This document shows, piece by piece, positions 14,450 through 62,994 of a stretch of 64,000 nt of DNA. The translations under genes and the position numbers were made by a program. The notes beneath the pieces were generated by a model. It searched no databases, had not been told where the DNA came from, and worked only from the letters and a program-made list of their open reading frames with translations. This DNA comes from Candidatus Equimonas faecalis. GTDB taxonomy: Bacteria > Bacteroidota > Bacteroidia > Bacteroidales > Bacteroidaceae. The stretch covers positions 1 through 64,000 of the forward strand of contig JAGHRT010000006.1 in the NCBI GenBank assembly GCA_018066245.1. The letters run 5' to 3'. How positions within the stretch are numbered: position 1 is the stretch's first letter; every line of letters begins with the position of its first letter.

Positions 14450-14638
14450 TTACATATCAGAGTCCCAGAAGCCGCCGGGGCTCCCACTTATGTCAGGATT
14501 GTCCATGTCCCCGTCAAGGAATCCGCCCATGCCGCCGCCCGTCGAGGGACTGCTCTGGTCGAAGTCGCTGAAGGCCAGGAACTGCGCCGCCTGCATGCCC
14601 ATACATTCGGCACACGGAGTGATATAGCGGCGTTTCAT
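14450..14638 (-). CDS. Small acidic protein, YxxPxxE/LxAxS family, coupled to a BspA-like gene
   Basis: A 62-residue protein whose ATG overlaps the TGA of the upstream BspA-like gene (ATGA), indicating translational coupling. The N-terminus KRRYITPCAE matches the Tyr-x-x-Pro-x-x-Glu pattern of the copies at 45-218 and 34471-34635. A hydrophobic stretch ending FLAFS follows, then a Gly/Asp-rich tail closing GGFWDSDM. It contains Cys residues near the N-terminus (CAECMGMQ). No known domain or standard signal peptide. The terminator at 14394 closes the unit. Function unknown. Confidence 0.75.
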   Translation of the reverse strand: MKRRYITPCAECMGMQAAQFLAFSDFDQSSPSTGGGMGGFLDGDMDNPDISGSPGGFWDSDM

Positions 14639-16833
14639 CGTACAATGACTTTCTTTCCGTTCGTAATGTATAGGCCACTCTTGGGCTGTACTTGCGTGCG
14701 GCCCTGCAGGTCGTAGTAGGGAGCGGAGGCATTGCCCTCACCCTTCACTACGCCGATGAGGCCTTCCGTGTCCATGTCGTCGGTGGCAACCTTTATGTTG
14801 AGCTGGCGTGCGGCAGCCACGCCGCCTTCCTTCTGGAAATAAGCGCGGAAGGGGTCATTACCCACCGTGGCCGTCTCCACGAATGAAGCGCCGTTGGCAT
14901 CGAGGGCATAGCCCGTGCAGTCGTCGGCCGTGGTGTCGTAGTTGCCCGTGAAAGTGAAGGCTCCCTTCTTCAGCGTAGGCATGTCAGTCATGGGCAGGTC
15001 CACGTTGCTGGCACGGAAGGTTATGCTCTGCCCTTGCAGGTGACCCTGTCCCATCGTTTCGCCGGGGAAGGCAATGAGGTAAGGCACGTTGGCCTCCATG
15101 CGTCCGTCGAGCGTAGAGGTGAAGAACACCGACTCGCTGCTGGCGCTCACGAAGCGGCGCAGCCAGAAGTTGCCCTGCGATCCCAGCGTGATGGGAGCCA
15201 GATAGCCCGCAGAGCTGGCAATATAGTCCGTAGGCTCGAAGGGCAGCACGATAGTCTCCCATCCGCTCTTGCCGTTGGCCCAGACGGAAGGGTTGTGGAC
15301 ATATTCCACTCTGTCTGCCGAGATGGGGCGGATAGCGTTGTAAACACAGTTGTCCGTCAGCTTAATGCTGGAAGCCTCACCCGTCTCGATGTTTACCACA
15401 TTATCACCTGAAAGCTCGTCGCCTGTATAAATATAATACAGGCAGTTGGGGTTCATGCCTTCCTTAATTTTGCTAATTGAGAGGCTGGGGTCAATGCCGT
15501 CGCTGAAAAGGACGGAAGAGGCGTTCATTTTATCCACGCTGGCCATATCGGCAGCATAGGTATCGGCGGTCGGCCTGATGGTCAAAATGGCATCGGGCAT
15601 CTCCCAAAAAGTGTAACCTTTCCATTCGGACTTATAAGCGGAAATGCTTCCTGCAGGGACATATATCATTTTATTGCCGTCAATAGAGCCAAATAAAGCG
15701 GGCGGCCAATTAGGTTTGCAAATTATGGCTTTGAGACTTGTGCAACCAGAGAAGGCACCGTAATCTATGAAATTAACGCCGCTTCCAATGATGACGGAGG
15801 TTAGCTCGCTGAAATCTTTGAAGGCATTCTCGTCTATCCTAATCACACTGTTAGGGATGATGACGGAGGTGATATTTTCCAAACGGGTTCTAATCGCCGT
15901 TTCACAACCATCTGCATAAATCAGTTTTTTTAAGCCAGTGCAATTTTCAAAGACAGAACTGTCTATGCTCGACAGGCCGCTTCCGATGGTTACGGAGGTC
16001 AGGCAGAGACAATTATGAAAGGCATCGTTGCCTATGCTCTCCACAGAGCTAGGGATAGTTATTGAGGTCAGGCCGAGGCAACCATGGAAGGCATCGTTGC
16101 CTATGCTCGTCACACTGTTAGGGATAGTTATGGAAGTCAGACCGTCGCGTTCACTGAAGGCTTCGTTGCCTATGCTCGTCACACTGTTAGGGATAGTTGT
16201 ATTATTGCATCCTTCTATAAGCGTATTGCTTGCTGTCTCAATAATGGCATTGCAGTCGTTGCGGCTGTCGTAATGCGTGTTACCGCTGTCCACGGTGATG
16301 GAGGCCAGGCCGTCGCAGTCACAGAATACATAGTTTCCTAAACTCGTCACGCTGCTTGGAATGGTGACGGATGTCAGGCCGGTGCAACCATAGAAGACGC
16401 CGTCTCCTATGCTCGTTACGCCGTCGGTGATGGTGATGGAGGTCAGGCCGAAGCAACCACGGAAGGCATGGTTTTCTATACTCTCCACGCTGTTAGGGAT
16501 AGTGATGGAGGACAGTTTGCTGCAATTAAAAAAGGCAAATTCTCCTATGCTCGTCACGCCGTTGGCGATGGTGATGGAGGTCATATTGCTGCTACCATAG
16601 AAGGCATTGCTTCCTATGCCCGTCACTTTATAAGTTACTTCTTCATACGAAACGGTGCTTGGAATGCTAACTTCACCGGAGTAGGAATTCGGGTGCCCGT
16701 TATGAATTACTGAAACCTCATCACTGTTGATTTTGTTGTAATAAATACCATCCACCTCAAAATCATAGGCGGAAACCATCTGCGGCATTATCATACCGAT
16801 TGCCGCAAAAAGGATAATAAGTTTTTTGGTCAT
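14635..16833 (-). CDS. BspA-like leucine-rich repeat (LRR_5) surface protein 1
   Basis: A 732-residue secreted protein. Residues 1-22 form a signal peptide (MTKKLIILFAAIGMIMPQMVSA). About 12 BspA/Treponema-type LRR_5 repeats of the form TSITIPNSVTSIGNDAFHGC cover residues about 50-385. A C-terminal region of unknown fold follows and ends DLQGRTQVQPKSGLYITNGK plus KVIVR, a short sorting-like tail shared with its paralogues. Such proteins bind host proteins or other cells in oral and gut Bacteroidales, but the ligand here is unknown. The repeats are very similar at DNA level (16020-16200), inviting slippage. Its stop overlaps the small acidic gene. Upstream lies the structured block 16877-17086. 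Confidence 0.9.
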   Translation of the reverse strand: MTKKLIILFAAIGMIMPQMVSAYDFEVDGIYYNKINSDEVSVIHNGHPNSYSGEVSIPSTVSYEEVTYKVTGIGSNAFYGSSNMTSITIANGVTSIGEFAFFNCSKLSSITIPNSVESIENHAFRGCFGLTSITITDGVTSIGDGVFYGCTGLTSVTIPSSVTSLGNYVFCDCDGLASITVDSGNTHYDSRNDCNAIIETASNTLIEGCNNTTIPNSVTSIGNEAFSERDGLTSITIPNSVTSIGNDAFHGCLGLTSITIPSSVESIGNDAFHNCLCLTSVTIGSGLSSIDSSVFENCTGLKKLIYADGCETAIRTRLENITSVIIPNSVIRIDENAFKDFSELTSVIIGSGVNFIDYGAFSGCTSLKAIICKPNWPPALFGSIDGNKMIYVPAGSISAYKSEWKGYTFWEMPDAILTIRPTADTYAADMASVDKMNASSVLFSDGIDPSLSISKIKEGMNPNCLYYIYTGDELSGDNVVNIETGEASSIKLTDNCVYNAIRPISADRVEYVHNPSVWANGKSGWETIVLPFEPTDYIASSAGYLAPITLGSQGNFWLRRFVSASSESVFFTSTLDGRMEANVPYLIAFPGETMGQGHLQGQSITFRASNVDLPMTDMPTLKKGAFTFTGNYDTTADDCTGYALDANGASFVETATVGNDPFRAYFQKEGGVAAARQLNIKVATDDMDTEGLIGVVKGEGNASAPYYDLQGRTQVQPKSGLYITNGKKVIVR

Positions 16834-16876
16834 TTTGTGAGTAAATTAAAAAGGTCGGAACCATTCCTTCTGCTTA

Positions 16877-17086
16877 TTCTACTCACGGGTACGACCAAGA
16901 ACCTTTAGGACAATAAGCACAGATAGTTCACGCCCTATAGAGGGCATGAGCTTTAGTCTGTCTTGTCCTATTCTTGAATTTGGTCGTTTCGCGAGTAGAA
17001 GAACAAGAGCTCAACGCTCAAGCGATATGTATGCTGGGAACGGATGCTGCCCTCAAGTTAGTAATGAGTGAATTGAGGGTGAGCGT
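16877..17086. ncRNA. Structured RNA candidate upstream of BspA-like gene 1
   Basis: Six nested helices form a long irregular rod: TTCTACTC/GAGTAGAA (16877/16993), ACGACCAA/TTGGTCGT (16891/16980), AGGACAA/TTGTCCT (16907/16963), ACAGA/TCTGT, AGTTCA/TGAGCT and GCCCT/AGGGC with an ATAG loop. Next to it, ACGCTCA/TGAGCGT encloses CCCTCAA/TTGAGGG (17015-17086). The strand cannot be told from base pairing alone. It could be the leader of the BspA gene (44 bases away, minus strand) or an independent RNA. The rod shape recalls 6S RNA, but no family-specific sequence was recognised. Confidence 0.4.
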
Positions 17087-34666: not shown

Positions 34667-36883
34667 TCATTTGCCAATCACCTTTTTCCCATTAACAAGC
34701 CCTATGCCTTTCACGCCGCCCTGTACGTTGCGGCCCATGAGGTCAAACTCTACGAGGCTCTCAGCCGTTGGGGCGGCGGACTTGAGGCCGTGGCCTGAAT
34801 GCAGGTCTTCAATCGCCGTAGCACGTTCGTCGTCTGCCCACACGGAAAAAGCCTGTGCCTTGGCAGCTGCGGAGGCTGGATGCCTCGGCGTAATGCTCAT
34901 ATACCAACGCTGCGCACCAAGCACTACGCCGGCATTTGCCGCCTGTTGAAGTTTGCCGCCGCTCATGGCATAGTATTCATTGGCCAACATATCCTCCACA
35001 GGCATGTAAGTGCCCGTGAACGTATATTCTAATTTCACGCTGCGGCAGTCAATGCTGTTCTGCTCGGCGGGCTCCAGCACCTTGTCAGTCATAACGAGGC
35101 TGTGCGTACCCGTTTCCTTGGCGCGGATAAGGTAGGGATAGTTGGGCTCCGTACGTCCTGAGTTCAACTTCCGCACGACCAGACACGTGCGTTCACACAC
35201 GCCGTCCTCATCGTCGTCGTACTCAATAAAGTTGTAGATTTCGGCAATATCGTACTTCTCGCTCCATTCCTCATAGTCCATGGAGAAGGGCACATAGAGG
35301 GCTTGCCAGTTCGTATTGCTGAAGCGGCGCGTGTAAGTCAAGCTGTCACACAGCGTCTCTTCTGCTGCCGTGTAAGTCTCTCCATCGGCAAACACACGAC
35401 TGCACCCTTCCTCCATAAAGACCTTTACTGTGGTGATTGCCACAGCTGAACGGGCAGCAAACTGCACCTCCTTGGCTGAGCCTGTCCACACGGAGCCGTC
35501 CAACTGGCCCGTGTCGGAAATCAACTTATCGCAGGTCTTGCTATAATCACTCCCAAACTCCACCTTTACAATCCTCAAGTTTTCGTCTGCCACGCTAAGG
35601 ATAAACTTGCCCCGCGAAGGCATGTATAGCGCACACTTTCCGTTGGCATCCTTCTGTTCGCTGCAAGCCTCAAAACTGGCTGTTACGTCTCCCCTGCTGA
35701 CAGGCGAAGTAACGTCAATCGCCTGAGTGATGCCGGAAGGCTCCGTTATGTTCATGGAAGCAGGAACCGTAAAGTCAAACACAGGATAGTAGGTCAGATG
35801 AATCCGACTGTCGCTGAAAGACATACCGACCTCACATCCTGCCACTTCGGCAGGCACAACTTCATCGGCATACAAATAGGCCGCCGTGAAGCTCTCGCCA
35901 TTGCCGTACTTCATTCCGTCATACACCGCGCCGCCCTCAGCGCTACCCGTCACATGCACGCTATAGGTCGTTTCAGGCGCGAGGTCATCGACTATGGCAA
36001 ACTGGCGCCAATGATTTTGCGCGGCATAGGCATCCTTGCACCCCTGCGGCACATGAAGGGTGCCATAGGATGAGAAAGCACTGACAGCCATGGCCTGAGG
36101 CTTAGCGGCCTTATTCACGACGGTGGCCAGATTCGGGCAATCCAAGAAAGCCTGGCTGCCGATGTCCGTCACCCCCTGAGGAATTACAATGGAAGCAAGG
36201 CTGCGGCAACCTTGGAAAGCCTGAAGCCCTATACGCGTCTGATTCTTCGACAGCCGGACGGAAGTCAGCTCTGTGCAGCCATAGAAGGCTCGCTGGCCGA
36301 TGTCCGTCACGCTGCCTGGGAGTACCATGGAAGCCAAGCCTTTGCAGCCAAGGAAAGCATAATCCCCTATACGCGTTACGCCATCCGGCACAGCCGAATT
36401 ACAGCACCCCACAATCAGCGTGTGCGCATGGTCTGCGTTGTCAATAATGGCCTGGCAATTATCGCGGCTGTCATAGCGGCTATTCCCCTCCTTCACGCTT
36501 ATGGAAGTCAGGCCCGTACAGCCATAGAAGGCATTTTCACCAATTTCATTGACGGAAGCAGGAATCATTATGGACTTCAATCCGCTGCAACCCATAAAGG
36601 CATTCTTTCCAATGCTTTTCACGCTGCCGGAAATAAAGAGGTCCGTCAGGCCCGTGCAGCCCCTAAACGCACCGTCGCCTATGCCACTCACGATATAGTA
36701 CCCGTCTCTATATGTCAGGGCCTGAGGTATGCTTACGTCACCGCCCCTGCCCGTGTAGGCAGACACGCACACTTCTCCCTCTCCCGTAATGGTGAAACCC
36801 AATTGGCCAAGTGTAAAATCGTAGGCCAACAGCTGCCCGATACCGACAAGCATAAGGGCAACAAAGCAAAATGGTTTTTTCAT
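34667..36883 (-). CDS. BspA-like leucine-rich repeat surface protein 2
   Basis: A 738-residue secreted protein with signal peptide MKKPFCFVALMLVGIGQLLA. LRR_5 repeats (for example TDLFISGSVKSIGKNAFMGC, MVLPGSVTDIGQRAFYGC) cover about residues 60-270. A beta-rich middle follows, then a long C-terminal domain ending DLMGRNVQGGVKGIGLVNGK and KVIGK. The ATG at 36881 was chosen because the upstream extension lacks protein character and a promoter lies further upstream at 37157. Its leader is therefore about 270 bases, GC-rich and foldable. The small acidic gene follows directly. Confidence 0.88.
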   Translation of the reverse strand: MKKPFCFVALMLVGIGQLLAYDFTLGQLGFTITGEGEVCVSAYTGRGGDVSIPQALTYRDGYYIVSGIGDGAFRGCTGLTDLFISGSVKSIGKNAFMGCSGLKSIMIPASVNEIGENAFYGCTGLTSISVKEGNSRYDSRDNCQAIIDNADHAHTLIVGCCNSAVPDGVTRIGDYAFLGCKGLASMVLPGSVTDIGQRAFYGCTELTSVRLSKNQTRIGLQAFQGCRSLASIVIPQGVTDIGSQAFLDCPNLATVVNKAAKPQAMAVSAFSSYGTLHVPQGCKDAYAAQNHWRQFAIVDDLAPETTYSVHVTGSAEGGAVYDGMKYGNGESFTAAYLYADEVVPAEVAGCEVGMSFSDSRIHLTYYPVFDFTVPASMNITEPSGITQAIDVTSPVSRGDVTASFEACSEQKDANGKCALYMPSRGKFILSVADENLRIVKVEFGSDYSKTCDKLISDTGQLDGSVWTGSAKEVQFAARSAVAITTVKVFMEEGCSRVFADGETYTAAEETLCDSLTYTRRFSNTNWQALYVPFSMDYEEWSEKYDIAEIYNFIEYDDDEDGVCERTCLVVRKLNSGRTEPNYPYLIRAKETGTHSLVMTDKVLEPAEQNSIDCRSVKLEYTFTGTYMPVEDMLANEYYAMSGGKLQQAANAGVVLGAQRWYMSITPRHPASAAAKAQAFSVWADDERATAIEDLHSGHGLKSAAPTAESLVEFDLMGRNVQGGVKGIGLVNGKKVIGK

Positions 36884-37156
36884 AGTGTGTATTAGATTAG
36901 GTTTGTGAATATGCCGGAAGGGCGTGCTCTCCGCAAGGTGCCGATGGCCGATTCTCGAGGGGGCAATCTGCACTTCAGTATTCAGCGTCGGACACCCCGT
37001 GTCTTCATAGAAGAGCCAAGCACGTCCCCATGGGGGGATCTTGCGAGTGCTTCCTCGCACGAAGCAGGGAGCGGAAGGTCGGCGGAAAAGGGGGGCGCGG
37101 CTTGGCCGTGAATCCCTTCCGCCGGGCCGCGTCCGCCAAAGGCGGCCTTGCGAGTG

Positions 37157-37188
37157 CAAAGATAGAGGTTCCGCCACTTAGCGCCAAA
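37157..37188 (-). promoter_or_regulatory. Promoter of BspA-like gene 2
   Basis: On the minus strand TTTG (37185-37188), 20-base spacer, TATCTTTG (37157-37164). It predicts a leader of roughly 270 bases before the ATG at 36883, rich in GGCGG/CCGCC-type inverted words. Confidence 0.65.
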
Positions 37189-37440
37189 CAAATTAAAGCC
37201 TTTTTGGCATTTTGTCTCCATCCCCTCACCGTTTTGCTTGTACGGCACATCAAAAAGCACCTCGAAGTACTGCAAATACGGGAAGCGTTTCCCGCGCAAC
37301 ACAAAGGACTACTGTAAGTTGCCTGTCTTACACACCATCCCCGTCGCCTTGCAGTTTACGCCACTCACCCCTGCTTTTCTTGCTGCATCTCCCACCTTCC
37401 TACACCCCGCAGGGAAGGGTTGAAGGGAGGACTTTCCAGT
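37178..37440. other. Intergenic stretch without a recognisable gene
   Basis: Upstream of the BspA-like gene 2 promoter. No credible coding frame on either strand. The right end carries a CCCCGCAGGGAAGGGTTGAA-type copy of the dispersed C/G repeat. Confidence 0.4.
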
Positions 37441-37443
37441 GGG

Positions 37444-37677
37444 CTAATAATTAAAGCCAAAATGCCACAAGGGTATCACATTGCGGCTGCCGTACTCAAT
37501 ATCATCACGCACAACGATGCCGTCAGGAACGTCCGCTATCTGCTTCTTCCCCTTTTTACGTCCTCCTATCTCAAAAGTATATTTGCTGATTTTGAAATCA
37601 GACTCACGCGAGGATACTACATCATTCTTCACTCTCATCTGATTGTAGAAGAATGTCTCTCGAAGATTTCCGGCATT
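37444..37677 (-). pseudogene. C-terminal remnant of an AAA-family ATPase (DUF4143-type)
   Basis: The 78 residues from NAGNLRETFFYNQMRVKNDV to the end DDIEYGSRNVIPLWHFGFNY match the C-terminal end of the large AAA ATPase family common in Bacteroidales (RETFF-NQ, FEIGGRKKGKKQI, VVRDDIEYG-NIIPLW-FG-Y), from memory. The N-terminal ATPase domain is absent. The frame upstream runs into a hairpin-rich non-coding repeat. It is therefore a decayed fragment, showing that this interval has lost a gene. Confidence 0.7.
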
Positions 37678-37713
37678 AGGTTTGAACGGAGCCAGTCCCC
37701 CAAAATACAAAAA

Positions 37714-37767
37714 AAATCCCTCAATGAGGGACAAGAATAACAAAAATCGTCCCTCAATGAGGGATTT
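37714..37767. repeat. Double palindrome TCCCTCA-A-TGAGGGA
   Basis: AAATCCCTCAATGAGGGAC (37714-37732) and GTCCCTCAATGAGGGATTT (37749-37767) are each self-complementary and also complementary to one another with one mismatch. They are flanked by A- and T-runs, so the block can act as a terminator on either strand. Confidence 0.6.
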
Positions 37768-37799
37768 TTCCTATCCCCGTACCCTGCGAACCTCATTTT

Positions 37800-38060
37800 A
37801 GGAGTTGTCCGACAAGTGAGTATCATTGCGGCCTGCGGCCTTATGACTGGCTACCTTTATAGCCTACCTACGGCAGGCTTCTTTCATTATTCACTGTTCA
37901 CTCTCCAAAATGTGCCCCGCATCTACGGCGGCGCTCCCTACGGTCGCTCTGCCGCAGACTATACAACATAGGGCTTCCAGCCCATTGCCGTTCGCTCTAT
38001 TATTGTTCATTATCCACAATATCCCTACGGGATATGTGTCCCCCTGCGGGGCGCATTGCC
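37800..38060. repeat. Intergenic repeat block B (short-hairpin mosaic)
   Basis: Shares GCCTACCTACGGCAGGCTTC, ACGGCGGCGCTCCCTACGGT followed by CGCTCTGCCGCAG, a CTATACAACATAGGGC stretch and ATCCCTACGGGATATG with blocks A, C and D. It also contains a TTCATTATTCACTGTTCACT motif. No gene seen. It lies downstream of BspA-like gene 3. Confidence 0.65.
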
Positions 38061-38172
38061 GCATGAAATACAGACCTTCAGCCCAATGTTCAGAGAATTT
38101 AACTTTTATCGGACACGTATTATAATATGACACGCGCACGTAGTACATTTTCCATCTACACCTGAATCATAA

Positions 38173-38204
38173 ACGCCCCGCCAAGAACATCTTTGGCGGG
38201 GCGT
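38173..38204 (-). terminator. Terminator of BspA-like gene 3
   Basis: ACGCCCCGCCAA pairs perfectly with TTGGCGGGGCGT (12 bp) around an 8-base loop, 22 bases after the stop. No small acidic gene intervenes, unlike the other BspA units. The U-tract is weak. Confidence 0.65.
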
Positions 38205-38226
38205 CGCATATAGGATTATCAACGAA

Positions 38227-40713
38227 CTATTTCATAAGCACTTTACGGCCATCCTGAATATACAGGCCACTCTTTTGCTTATCATTCAAGTGGCGGCCAG
38301 AGAGGTCGAAAGCCGAGTCTTCTGACTGCTGATCAATTGTGACAGAGTTTACTCCTGTTATCTCGTTCAGGCTACCGATGTAGTGAAAGCGCTTCCACCA
38401 ACTGTCGCCCTTGTATTTGGAAACAGAGGCAGCAGGCACATACAAGGATGCCTTATTGAACACGGCATTCATCTTCGTAGGATCATCTGTGCCGATAAAA
38501 GGAGGTACATTCGTAGCATTGCATATTACTTTATTCATGCTCGTACAATTCAGGAAGATATTGTCATTGATATACTGTACGGTAGAAGGAATCGTGACAT
38601 CCTTGATACTTGAGCAACCGCTAAACACATTGTTGTTAATATAAACCGTGCCAGAAGGTATGACAACGCTTGTCAGTTCTTTTCCGTTTTGATACAGATG
38701 ATGTGCAATACTTGTGGGATTAGCATATTGATCATAGAAATTAGTTTGTACCCAACTGTCCACTCTGCTTATTTCCACGCGCGACAACTTGCTGCATCCC
38801 TTAAAAGCATTTGAGCCGACTGTCATCGTGGAAATAGCCGTATTGAACTTCACCGTGGTCAAAGCCGTGCAATCCGTGAAGCAATAAGCCCCCACACCCT
38901 GCATATCGGCAGGGAGTTCAATGGTCTTTAAAGCCGTGTCGTAGGCAAAGCCATAGTTCTGAACAGAAGAAATGCTATTGGGCAACGTTAAGGACGCGAG
39001 GGCTGTACAGTTTGCAAAAGCATATTCATTAATCATGTTCAGCGAGGTTGAAAGGGTCAAATCGGAAAGTGAAGTGCAATAGCGGAAGCCCTCGTTTTCA
39101 ACAGTATGAACACTGTTAGGCATGACAAATCCATCAAGACGCGAACAGCCGTAGAAAGCCCGCTTGTCAATAAGCTCCAAAGCACTGGAGGCTGACTCCA
39201 TAAAGATAACACGTGCCAGTTTTTCGCACTTCTCAAATGCTTTTTCATCGATTGTTATGATTGACTTGGGAATGACTACACTCTGCAAATCAGGCATATA
39301 ATAGAAAGCTTGTTTACCAATAGCGGTTACATCATAAGTCTTACCAGAATACGTAATGGACGCTGGAATATTGATTGTACCGGAATATTCCGTTCTTGGG
39401 GTCTCAGGACAATCAATACCTGCGATACGATTAGTTACCTCCGCCGTATTAAAGCTTGTTCTATTATAATAGATACCACCCACATACATCACGTTTTCAT
39501 CCTGCACTTCAATAAGGCAAGTAGCTGTAACATCACTTTCCGTGGTGACCTTCGCTGTAATAAGAGCAGAGCCAATTGTGACTGCGGTTACCAAGCCTGA
39601 AGAGGAGACTATGGCTACACCATTATCACTGCTGCTCCAAGTCACTGTCATATCTGCAGGATCCGTTGTAGCAGAAAGTTGCAGCGTCTGACCAAGATGA
39701 AGAGTTGCAGATGACATGCTGATAGAAATGGTTTTATCCTTCACTGTAATAGTACAGGTTTCCTTTATGGAGGAATCTGTTGTACTTGCAGCAGTAATAG
39801 TCGTTGTTCCTGCTTTCTTGGCCGTTACAAGTCCACTGTCGCTTACCGAGGCAATTGCAGTGTTACTGCTGCTCCAAGTTACACCTCCACCCAAAAAGGG
39901 AGGTACCGTTGCATTTAACTGCAATGTCTGCCCAATATATAAATTTTGGGAAGTATAATCAAGGGAAAGACCTATTTCTTGTATGTCATAATCGCTCCAA
40001 TACCTAGCATCTTTATATTTAGAAGCACACCCCTTAGGAACATATATAATTGTGTTTGTAGGGAAGGCTCCTGAGCCAAACAATTTAGGCGGCGTGGTTC
40101 CCTGCATAATAACATAGGACAAGCCACAACCATCAAAAGCACTTGAATCAATATCAACGACGCTGCTAGGGATTGTAATGGAGGTCAGTTTAGTGCAACC
40201 AGAGAAAGCCAGTGTTCCAATGCTCGTCACGCCGTTGGGTATGCTGACGGAGGCAAGGCTAGTGCAACCAAAGAAAGTTGAAGTTTTAATGCTCTTCACG
40301 CTGCTGGGGATGGTGACGGAGGCCAATTTAGAGCAAATCTGGAAGGCACTGATTCCTATGCTCGTCACGCCATTAGGAATAGTGATGGACGTTAGGCTGC
40401 TGCAACCGTTGAAGGCATCGTCTCCTATGCTCGTCACGCTGCTGGGGATGGAGACGGAGGTCAATTTATAGCATCCATAGAAGGCTTGGCTTCCTATGCT
40501 CGTCACGCTATAAGTTACATTCTCATAAGTGACTGTAGCAGGAATAGCAACAGCTCTAGAATAGGTATTAAAAGTACTTTCACCGTAAGTTAGTTCCACT
40601 TCAGCATTGTTTGCCAACTTGTTGTAATAAAAGCCTTCCACTTCAAAGTCATAGGCGAAGGTCTGCCCAATGCAGAGGAGCATCAAGGGCAAAAGAGTAA
40701 TAAGTTTTTTCAT
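38227..40713 (-). CDS. BspA-like leucine-rich repeat surface protein 3 with Big_2 domains
   Basis: An 828-residue secreted protein. Signal peptide MKKLITLLPLMLLCIGQTFA is followed by YDFEVEGFYYNKL, very like BspA-like protein 1. LRR_5 repeats span about residues 60-245. Two bacterial Ig-like Big_2 domains follow at about 265-425 (LNATVPPFLGGGVTWSSSNT, GLVTAKKAGTTTITA and a second copy VTWSSSDNGVAIVSSSGLVT). A second LRR_5 block covers about 445-770 and the C-terminus reads DLSGRHLNDKQKSGLYIQDG and RKVLMK. The ATG at 40713 gives a normal signal peptide. It has a structured leader of about 450 bases and a hairpin terminator. Confidence 0.9.
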   Translation of the reverse strand: MKKLITLLPLMLLCIGQTFAYDFEVEGFYYNKLANNAEVELTYGESTFNTYSRAVAIPATVTYENVTYSVTSIGSQAFYGCYKLTSVSIPSSVTSIGDDAFNGCSSLTSITIPNGVTSIGISAFQICSKLASVTIPSSVKSIKTSTFFGCTSLASVSIPNGVTSIGTLAFSGCTKLTSITIPSSVVDIDSSAFDGCGLSYVIMQGTTPPKLFGSGAFPTNTIIYVPKGCASKYKDARYWSDYDIQEIGLSLDYTSQNLYIGQTLQLNATVPPFLGGGVTWSSSNTAIASVSDSGLVTAKKAGTTTITAASTTDSSIKETCTITVKDKTISISMSSATLHLGQTLQLSATTDPADMTVTWSSSDNGVAIVSSSGLVTAVTIGSALITAKVTTESDVTATCLIEVQDENVMYVGGIYYNRTSFNTAEVTNRIAGIDCPETPRTEYSGTINIPASITYSGKTYDVTAIGKQAFYYMPDLQSVVIPKSIITIDEKAFEKCEKLARVIFMESASSALELIDKRAFYGCSRLDGFVMPNSVHTVENEGFRYCTSLSDLTLSTSLNMINEYAFANCTALASLTLPNSISSVQNYGFAYDTALKTIELPADMQGVGAYCFTDCTALTTVKFNTAISTMTVGSNAFKGCSKLSRVEISRVDSWVQTNFYDQYANPTSIAHHLYQNGKELTSVVIPSGTVYINNNVFSGCSSIKDVTIPSTVQYINDNIFLNCTSMNKVICNATNVPPFIGTDDPTKMNAVFNKASLYVPAASVSKYKGDSWWKRFHYIGSLNEITGVNSVTIDQQSEDSAFDLSGRHLNDKQKSGLYIQDGRKVLMK

Positions 40714-40791
40714 AAATGAGTGAATTAAATAAGTAAATATGTGCAAGAAACACAGGTGGTACCCTGTTCAACCATTAAGAGAGTAACCGTT

Positions 40792-41166
40792 CAAGGTAAC
40801 AAAGTCTGGACTGGGTCGGATTTTTATAGACCTTGAGACTTCCTGACAGACATCATTCATTTGCAGTGGTTTGCCTACAGATCCTCCGACTCGGCCTTTT
40901 TAAGGTGATTAATACAAGAATGCGCGAGGACTTGTCCTTACTCATCTTGAATCTGGTATCGGCAAACACCTTAAGTGGAATGAATAAGAAAATAGCAACC
41001 CCACGCCGATATGCAATTGCTACTCGGCATGGTTGGCCGTATGCTAACAAAATACATACAGGTGAGCGTTACATACCCTCTATCCCGCACTTGATGAAAT
41101 TTTGCCGTTTTCGATTCAAAGGATAAAGCGTGGAACGCCTTCTCGTCAAACGCTTTCTCACGTTTG
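40792..41166 (-). ncRNA. Leader RNA candidate with three tandem H-type pseudoknots
   Basis: Between a good minus-strand promoter (41173-41204) and BspA-like gene 3. Three consecutive pseudoknots can be drawn (plus-strand coordinates). PK-A: TAGCAA 40993-40998 with TTGCTA 41017-41022, interlocked with CACGCCGA 41002-41009 and TCGGCATG 41024-41031. PK-B: GTTTGCC 40869-40875 with GGCAAAC 40961-40967, interlocked with TTAAGGTG 40900-40907 and CACCTTAA 40967-40974. PK-C: CAAGGT 40792-40797 with ACCTTG 40830-40835, interlocked with AAGTCT 40802-40807 and AGACTT 40836-40841. Hairpins GTATG/CATAC (41039/41055) and CAAACG/CGTTTG (41147/41161) lie near the 5' end. No tmRNA ends or tag were found. Confidence 0.5.
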
Positions 41167-41172
41167 CGGGGG

Positions 41173-41204
41173 CAAATATACGAACAAATAGGGACATGGC
41201 CAAA
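41173..41204 (-). promoter_or_regulatory. Promoter upstream of the pseudoknot leader and BspA-like gene 3
   Basis: On the minus strand TTTG (41201-41204), 20-base spacer, TATATTTG (41173-41180). The predicted start near 41166 coincides with the CAAACG/CGTTTG hairpin. Confidence 0.7.
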
Positions 41205-41277
41205 TTACGGCGGCATTATTTGATGGAAGTGGATAGAAATGGAGTGAAAAGCCGCTTCTCTCATATTATAATTTCGT

Positions 41278-41301
41278 GCGTCGAGTGCGTCGAATGCGTC
41301 A
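41278..41301 (+). repeat. Short 9-base tandem repeat TGCGTCGAA/G
   Basis: TGCGTCGAG-TGCGTCGAA-TGCGTC. The same array occurs at 62580-62605. Confidence 0.6.
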
Positions 41302-62659: not shown

Positions 62660-62994
62660 TAATATTGGTGTCAGGGAAAAAAGAATGTAAACTTTCGTGT
62701 TCCTTGTAAATTCAGGCGATTTGAAAGGTTTCCATAGGAGGGGCTTACCTTGTTACCTCGGGAGGCTAAGCACCGAAGGTGCGATAGAATGGAGGATAGG
62801 GCGCGAGCCCTATCTCTTATGTTTGATTCTTTATGAGAGCACTGTAAGTGCGATATAATTACCACTTTACTTGAAATATGTCGCACTTACAGTGCTCCCA
62901 AAGGAAAGGATGTTGGAGTGAGGTAGGGCTCACGCCCTACCCTCCGTTATGTCGTCCTTGCAGGACTTTCAATCTCTCCCTGACACTAATAATA
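62660..62994. mobile_element. MITE-like element with terminal inverted repeats
   Basis: Terminal inverted repeats TAATATTGGTGTCAGGGA (left) and TCCCTGACACTAATAATA (right) share a perfect 10-base core GTGTCAGGGA. The interior of about 300 bases has no gene but holds a perfect 17-bp inverted repeat (GAGCACTGTAAGTGCGA at 62837 and TCGCACTTACAGTGCTC at 62881) and hairpins GATAGGGC-GCGA-GCCCTATC, GTAGGGC-TCAC-GCCCTAC, GTCCT-TGC-AGGAC and GCACC-GAA-GGTGC. No transposase is nearby and a target duplication could not be set with certainty. Confidence 0.55.

Follow-up and report, generated by a model that had tools for sequence, protein, structure and literature searches.

Several pseudoknots occur in one RNA in tmRNA, and in type III toxin-antitoxin systems of the ToxI kind, a pseudoknotted RNA with a terminator lies before a gene. 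Riboswitch and attenuation leaders bring together a promoter, a sensor-like domain, a shared strand, a terminator-like helix with a U-run, and a gene close behind. The Bacteroidota are a major group of gut bacteria, and to our knowledge, few of their cis-regulatory RNAs have been characterized. In Bacteroides, the FopS/GibS sRNAs form a multicopy, trans-acting family of about 65 to 70 nt with a common 5′ seed and sigma-ABfr promoters, according to the part of PMC11697453 covered here. The part covered of PMC9723704 describes structured 5′ regions and conserved Rfp sRNAs without Rfam hits in Flavobacterium psychrophilum.

Here we analyzed a 64,000-nucleotide stretch of Candidatus Equimonas faecalis DNA (contig JAGHRT010000006.1, positions 1 to 64,000; the window), in which a leader at 40747-41204 on the minus strand lies upstream of a BspA-like LRR_5 gene. 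Judging from sequence comparison, this minus-strand leader is a genuine structured RNA that is conserved. We propose that it represents a class of cis-acting leaders of the Bacteroidota that probably work as riboswitch-like transcription attenuators, mostly before exported proteins and small regulators.

Results

Comparison with described RNAs

The element resembles riboswitch and attenuation leaders in all of the parts named above. In its sequence, it presents what is expected of an attenuator, namely, a conserved structured domain in gene leaders and two mutually exclusive conserved helices; the hallmark of a terminator is present in the sequence order-wide and is weak in the window copy. 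It differs from known riboswitches in that it lacks a known aptamer, matched no Rfam 15 family in the scans made, and contains a long-range composite loop-loop contact with two hypervariable flanking helices. It shares with tmRNA the presence of several pseudoknots, but it occurs in many copies per genome and in gene leaders. An earlier note, made from the sequence alone, had stated that tmRNA ends and tag were absent; ARAGORN found 4 tRNAs and no tmRNA in the window, and Rfam found no tmRNA there. In contrast to type III toxin-antitoxin systems, the genes after the five own-genome copies found by BLAST are mutually unrelated, none matches a Pfam toxin family, and no ToxN-like endoribonuclease lies downstream of these five copies. 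FopS and the element are both multicopy in Bacteroidales, but the element, at about 200 nt and in leaders, is set apart by size and layout from FopS as the covered part of its source presents it. The structured elements of F. psychrophilum in the covered part of PMC9723704 may include members of this class.

We found no match on the element when the whole window was scanned with Rfam 15 at the gathering cut-off. At an E of ≤5, positions 40600-41300 gave only a snoRNA match (E 1.5) on the other strand, and 20 diverse loci and 10 phylum loci gave no credible match at an E of ≤0.5. On these Rfam and ARAGORN scans, an assignment to tmRNA, to a known riboswitch, or to another Rfam family was rejected, and the suggestion of an undescribed class in the earlier note agrees with the scans made. 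The class was not found described in the parts searched of PMC11697453, PMC11109978, PMC8040213, PMC9723704, and PMC7366714, a search that did not cover supplementary candidate lists, e.g., the 3161 candidates of PMC8040213. The novelty of the class rests on Rfam 15 and text searches, with supplementary candidates outside the comparison.

Elsewhere in the window, two matches to Acido-Lenti-1 RNA (RF01687) face each other, at 62769-62814 on the minus strand (37.1 bits) and 62922-62967 on the plus strand (45.9 bits). Between them, 62826-62908 gives weak matches on both strands and thus looks palindromic.

The RNA recurs in its own genome and, patchily, across the phylum

By BLAST, we found five leader copies in the own genome, 74 to 89% identical to the window copy. 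R2, a covariance model of 48 order-wide copies, gave 8 places there. A scan of the window with R2 gave, in addition, a second window copy that the whole-genome scan had missed, so that the genome has at least 9 copies and copy counts are lower bounds. The second copy and its gene are as follows.

16845-17022, minus strand: second RNA copy (R2 30 bits, E 1.9e-8 over the window; helices readable)
14635-16833, minus strand: BspA-like LRR_5 gene directly after the second copy (family search)

A leader confined to BspA-like genes was rejected: other genes follow the RNA too, and the stretch scanned around the start of the BspA-like gene at 34667-37177 (36900-38300) contained no copy.

Among 61 related genomes, the own included, 6 matched the leader by BLAST. 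The similarity spans the promoter and about 335 nt and mostly breaks off shortly before the start codon of the downstream gene, the genes being unrelated to one another. R1, a covariance model of 17 copies (alignment A1 holds 17 of 21 loci, with L009, L012, L013, and L021 omitted as partial or duplicate), matched 29 of 58 genomes in the genus at an E of ≤1e-3, 21 of them at an E of ≤1e-5, and 83 of 393 genomes in the order under strict filters. With R2, matches were found in 17 of 41 genomes of the order (16 at an E of ≤1e-5), with up to 21 in one genome, and in 31 of 395 genomes of a phylum sample under strict filters. The RNA is patchy: under strict filters, 24 of the 41 order genomes and 364 of the 395 phylum genomes gave no match.

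The phylum matches include 28 genomes outside the order, 26 of which had one copy, with few candidates scored per genome. We inspected 24 of these (G472, G629, G682, and G697 were left out); 22 look real and 2 look false. L230 and L231, phylum matches near an E of 3e-4, look false on inspection, which makes matches at an E above about 1e-5 doubtful. Some weak genus matches (L044, L048, and L050) nonetheless display the loop contact. A scan by exact pattern gave at least 120 loci, and the hosts among the matches listed include Butyricimonas, Odoribacter, Barnesiella, Coprobacter, Duncaniella, Alistipes, Prevotella-type genomes, and Muribaculaceae. A single MAG that carries the name Lachnoclostridium, probably through mislabelling, is the source of both L087 and L197.

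One fold with long-range pairing

The conserved element runs from about 41204 to 40873 on the minus strand, and the tail to 40747 lies outside it. From 5′ to 3′, its first half consists of the promoter, a variable 5′ hairpin, P1, P2, strand A (H10a, a loop strand, and H9a), the P2 return, the P1 return, and strand 1. The second half consists of clade inserts (the P5 hairpin and a loop pseudoknot), strand 2, strand 2′, strand B, strand 3′, strand 3 with the U-run, strand 4, and the start codon. Strand B starts with H9b and ends with H10b, with a hairpin that bears the partner loop strand between them; its pairing with strand A runs over three stretches. H9 and H10, which flank the loop-loop contact, are hypervariable in letters yet complementary throughout. 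Strand 2, GCGUGGG, has a partner either upstream (helix 1-2) or downstream (helix 2-3, followed by the U-run). In the window copy, we placed the parts as follows.

41195-41204, minus strand: -33 box region, with TTTG at 41201-41204 (sequence)
41173-41180, minus strand: -7 box TATATTTG (sequence and order-wide motif count)
41147-41166, minus strand: 5′ hairpin CAAACG/CGTTTG (order-wide matched pairing beats swapped partners, 0/1000; genus copies)
41134-41139, minus strand: P1 5′ strand GGCGUU (swap test, alignment, sequence)
41121-41128, minus strand: P2 5′ strand CUUUAUCC (pair counts, swap test, alignment)
41113-41120, minus strand: H10 5′ strand UUUGAAUC, partner 40946-40953 (6/6 pairs changed on both sides order-wide; duplex in the window)
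41101-41107, minus strand: loop strand A, CGGCAAA, of the loop-loop contact (97% paired; 49 double-change cells versus 8 shuffled)
41088-41092, minus strand: H9 5′ strand AAGUG, 5 bp in the window copy (swap tests, pair counts)
41078-41086, minus strand: P2 3′ strand GGGAUAGAG (pair counts, swap test, alignment)
41065-41070, minus strand: P1 3′ strand AACGCU (swap test, alignment, sequence)
41037-41061, minus strand: P5 hairpin CUGUAUG/CAUACGG, genus type (genus copies, sequence)
41024-41032, minus strand: strand 1, of P6 in the clade of the window copy, CCAUGCCGA (helix 1-2 supported order- and phylum-wide)
41017-41022, minus strand: P6 loop UAGCAA, partner UUGCUA at 40993-40998 (sequence; 10 of 21 copies by eye)
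41001-41011, minus strand: strand 2 UAUCGGCGUGG, partner strand 1 or strand 3 (both pairings above shuffles)
40980-40988, minus strand: strand 2′ CUUAUUCAU (helix 2′-3′, 141 double-change cells versus 41 shuffled)
40973-40977, minus strand: H9 3′ strand CACUU (read from the sequence, placed by coordinates)
40955-40970, minus strand: hairpin GGUGUUUGCCGAUACC carrying loop strand B (alignment, sequence)
40946-40953, minus strand: H10 3′ strand GAUUCAAG (swap test, sequence)
40937-40945, minus strand: strand 3′ AUGAGUAAG (swap test, alignment, sequence)
40913-40929, minus strand: strand 3 CCUCGCGC and weak U-run AUUCUUGUA (terminator-like; U-run poor in the window copy)
40873-40887, minus strand: strand 4 GGAGGAUCUGUAGGC, which can pair with strand 3 (swap tests 0/1000 and 2/2000)

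The helices covary

We compared matched and swapped partners between sequences in an alignment-free swap test. In the order set (38 nonredundant loci of 111 anchored among the 120 listed), matched partners of H10 gave -9.5 kcal/mol versus -2.9 for swapped ones, and H9 gave -9.6 versus -4.2 (0/1000 permutations each), whereas four negative-control strand pairs gave 356 to 935/1000. The test was weak for 2-3 (44/1000), 2′-3′ (150/1000), and P1 (27/1000) because these are nearly invariant in that set. The row of this test that set the loop against strand 2 was discarded for its invalid energies. The phylum set held 40 loci of 58 anchored of 95, after removal of L011 and L014 as wrongly anchored and then selection for redundancy and flank length. 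Here, H9, H10, P1, P2, 1-2, 2-3, and 2′-3′ each gave 0/2000, and six wrong-pair controls gave 89 to 1939/2000, with two of the six low (89/2000). The loop-contact row of the phylum test is circular because the anchors were chosen by complementarity, and the wide R2 alignment is the independent test.

That wide alignment holds 88 rows, made via R2 from loci hand-chosen for diversity, with 4 antisense rows of 92 dropped, and in R2 itself, the loop contact, H9, and H10 are left unpaired. We found that the loop contact was 97% paired, with 49 double-change cells versus 8 shuffled, and that double-change cells numbered 201 versus 92 for H10 and 151 versus 81 for H9. Alignment A3 holds 48 of 50 nonredundant loci (L148, misanchored, and L187, with N, were omitted), picked with a search pattern in which the loop contact and strand 3′ are each partly fixed. 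In its pair counts, 86.6% of cells were paired versus 74.6% shuffled, and there were 274 double-change cells versus 98.8 shuffled and 42 to 80 in slid versions; H10 had changes on both sides in 6/6 pairs order-wide. By eye, copies inside one genome bear different, matching loop alleles. Thus, H9, H10, P2, 1-2, 2-3, and the loop contact show more covariation than shuffles do, in statistics that leave relatedness among sequences uncorrected. Helix 1′-2′ gave 1/1000 in the order and 0/2000 in the phylum swap test, but in the wide alignment it was 64% paired versus 61% shuffled, with 36 versus 35 double-change cells, and we did not rely on it.

The earlier note would have given up its proposal had homologues lacked compensatory changes in the helices or had conservation followed codons; what we found is strong pair covariation. 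We also rejected a leader peptide of the genus type (MSKDKSLRFSC-like). At its position, the order consensus lacks an ATG, and the letters keep to the pairing. Where the genus type reads AUGAGUAAGGAC, the order consensus has AUAAAC, which pairs with strand 2′, so that the genus-type open reading frame (ORF) is not conserved.

In locus L007 (1520-1700), the loop contact, H9, and H10 are mismatched, as if recombined from two alleles.

Strand 2 has two conserved partners

Helices 1-2 and 2-3 exclude each other because strand 2 is common to both. In the wide alignment, 95% of cells were paired for 1-2, with 23 double-change cells versus 5 shuffled (maximum 11), and 97% for 2-3, with 26 versus 8 shuffled (maximum 15). 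Both exceed all 300 shuffles in double-change cells, and both are preserved where the letters have changed. The eight positions after strand 3 are rich in T order-wide (mean 6.16/8 T versus 2.27 further downstream; n=101). Strand 3 also covaries with strand 4, which lies beyond the U-run (0/1000 in the order and 2/2000 in the phylum), and this pairing is possible only once the U-run has been transcribed. In L205 and L206, a hairpin, GGGCA..UGCCC, is followed by seven T just before the gene.

A promoter motif precedes the RNA, and a gene usually follows

Within 130 nt upstream of P1, TAnnTTTG occurs in 103 of 110 order-wide loci versus 17 of 220 background windows, and 69 of the 103 loci with TAnnTTTG have TTG at the -33 spacing. 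We take this promoter, by its consensus, to be the main Bacteroidetes type. On the same strand, an ORF of at least 60 amino acids starts no more than 150 nt from the second hairpin in 83 of 107 loci, with none in 24; in several copies, the next ORF of this length is 130 to 333 nt away. Strand 3 and the ATG are separated by a median of 59 nt, and since only 1 of 80 such intervals contains a -7 box, the downstream gene is probably expressed mainly by read-through.

A signal-like N terminus was found, by a crude rule, in 64 of 83 first genes versus 191 of 461 control ORFs. In a Pfam scan of first genes that covered 78 of the 97 downstream products (omitting, among others, long proteins) and showed 25 of 30 families, LRR_5 was found in 10 of the 78 products, and BspA-like leucine-rich repeats were the commonest named class downstream. 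The own-genome BLAST copies precede LRR_5, PDDEXK_9 (below the cut-off), a 208-amino-acid protein without a family, an AIG1-like GTPase, and GIY-YIG. In related genomes, secreted repeat proteins and BspA-like proteins also lie downstream; helix-turn-helix (HTH) proteins, GTPases, response regulators, and nuclease-like proteins follow the RNA as well. The link to surface proteins drawn in the earlier note is thus borne out in the enrichment of signal-like N termini and in LRR_5 as the commonest named class, but not as an exclusive one, since other kinds of gene follow too. The downstream genes have no common pathway that would name a ligand.

A small Cro/C1-like HTH family, mostly of about 72 amino acids, lies directly after the RNA at L085, L088, L090, L100, L110, L121, L152, L162, L165, L186, and L201. 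A search of 149 genomes with the 72-amino-acid HTH protein gave 46 matches, and loci were obtained for 30 of them. R2 placed the RNA directly upstream on the same strand in 12 of these loci, 10 times at an E of ≤1e-5. This HTH family may be part of the same regulatory circuit as the RNA.

In other orders of the class, a family of proteins of 68 to 95 amino acids follows the RNA (L218, L219, L220, and L222), and the two members scanned (L218 and L220) had no Pfam match. At L205 (343-1482, minus strand) and L206, a 380-amino-acid protein follows, with a weak Rossmann (Shikimate_DH) similarity just under the Pfam cut-off; a terminator-like hairpin there ends about 20 nt before the start codon.

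The copy in the window

Two features lie between the element and the end of the downstream gene.

40768-40860, minus strand: 30-codon ORF, at the position where homologues start their own gene (translation)
38227-40713, minus strand: BspA-like LRR_5 gene, with an ATG at 40713, about 160 nt beyond the element

The family scan of the LRR_5 gene used the listed TTG start at 40746 (38227-40746); the ATG at 40713 was read from the sequence. The 30-codon ORF is possibly a remnant of a lost gene. In the window copy, H10 (8 bp), the loop contact (7 bp), P2, 2′-3′, and 2-3 can all form; H9 has only 5 bp, the U-run is poor, and the 30-codon ORF precedes the BspA gene. The window copy may therefore be a weak or decaying switch.

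The earlier note had read three tandem H-type pseudoknots in this leader, behind a promoter and a 5′ hairpin. Promoter (TTTG at 41201-41204 and TATATTTG at 41173-41180) and hairpin (CAAACG/CGTTTG, 41166 to 41147) are both present on the minus strand. The interlock of 6 and 6 bp is also present, at P6, as TGCCGA/TCGGCG (one G-U) with TAGCAA/TTGCTA; its second helix is kept in only 10 of 21 copies by eye, and a loop-flank pairing comparable to that of P6 (CCACTCCC/GGGAGTGG) occurs in many order copies, also by eye. The strands of the 7+8 knot (41011-40900), which we reconstructed as TATCGGC/GCCGATA with TTAAGGTG/CACCTTAA, pair differently in homologues, and we rejected this knot, whose second helix is absent from them by eye. 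For the 6+8 knot, we found no perfect Watson-Crick combination within a 130-nt span, bulged stems being left out. Nor are such knots hard to get by chance, as had been argued: the leader has 9 perfect two-stem (≥6) H-type knots versus a mean of 3.35 in shuffles, 5 of 60 shuffles reach 9, and with G-U allowed, there are 310 knots in the leader and 317 in shuffles. With the single-sequence count not clearly above chance, the evidence for structure comes from homologues. Most of the helices first named are not the conserved ones, and in place of three tandem pseudoknots, there is one fold with long-range pairing. The underlying idea of an interlocked functional RNA held up, in that the RNA is interlocked and conserved and its pairs covary in homologues.

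Discussion

We favor the view that the element is a cis-acting leader that probably attenuates transcription. According to this model, transcription would start from the element's own promoter of the main Bacteroidetes type, and the RNA would fold into P1, P2, and the long-range composite pairing of H10, the loop-loop contact, and H9. Pairing of strand 2 with strand 1 would form P6 and allow read-through, presumably the ON state, and pairing of strand 2 with strand 3, followed by the U-run, would form a putative intrinsic terminator. Expression of the gene, which starts about 60 nt beyond, would depend mainly on read-through. A signal acting on the knotted domain would most likely shift the choice, as in riboswitches and protein-binding attenuators. 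The recurrence of the RNA, the promoter motif, the covarying helices, the conservation of both alternative pairings, the U-run, and the position of the gene are shown at the level of sequence. From these, we infer termination by helix 2-3, the identity of the ON state, a ligand or protein as input, and the gene as the target.

The main rival, a discrete trans-acting sRNA of about 200 to 250 nt with its own promoter and terminator, behind which the gene would be expressed by leak-through or be a bystander, is in our judgment unlikely. The RNA does have its own promoter motif and U-run, 24 of 107 loci are without a close ORF, several copies lie 130 to 333 nt from the next one, and 26 of the 28 matched genomes outside the order have one copy, with few candidates scored per genome. 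An sRNA of this kind fits poorly with the clustering of same-strand start codons about 60 nt downstream of strand 3, with a -7 box in just 1 of 80 gaps, with a strand 3 that covaries with a strand beyond the U-run, and with the retention of both the 1-2 and 2-3 pairings. The covariation of strands 3 and 4 (0/1000 and 2/2000) and the position of strand 4 near the start codon would also suit a leader that acts on translation or mRNA decay, in which the 3-4 helix and the choice between 1-2 and 2-3 would set ribosome access and the U-run would not terminate. We consider this improbable: the T enrichment after strand 3 (6.16/8) and the L205/L206 hairpin with its seven T resemble intrinsic terminators.

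A processing element or ribozyme carried in leaders could account for the size and the knotted architecture, but it is very improbable, as it leaves the alternative pairing and the U-run unexplained and no Rfam ribozyme matched in the scans made. We give almost no credence to the end of a mobile element, or a repeat, that is not a functional RNA. Own-genome copies 74 to 89% identical to the window copy do lie before unrelated genes, and L007 resembles a chimera of two alleles, but compensatory changes in the main helices refute this as the sole explanation. Searches of mobile DNA also speak against it: BLAST gave no match for two queries against 50,697 phage records or for one query against 72,556 plasmid records, and there was one exact pattern match in viral contigs.

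We are evenly divided over a broader form of the attenuator model, in which the element would be an unregistered large regulatory RNA class across the Bacteroidota, with about 20 copies in some genomes, each with a private loop-loop contact, through which one global signal would drive surface proteins, lipoproteins, and small regulators via attenuation. A phylum-wide class before exported and regulatory genes, without an Rfam 15 match, would be a large regulatory layer. Such a class would give testable targets in termination, ligand, and regulon and would link many unnamed surface proteins to one signal.
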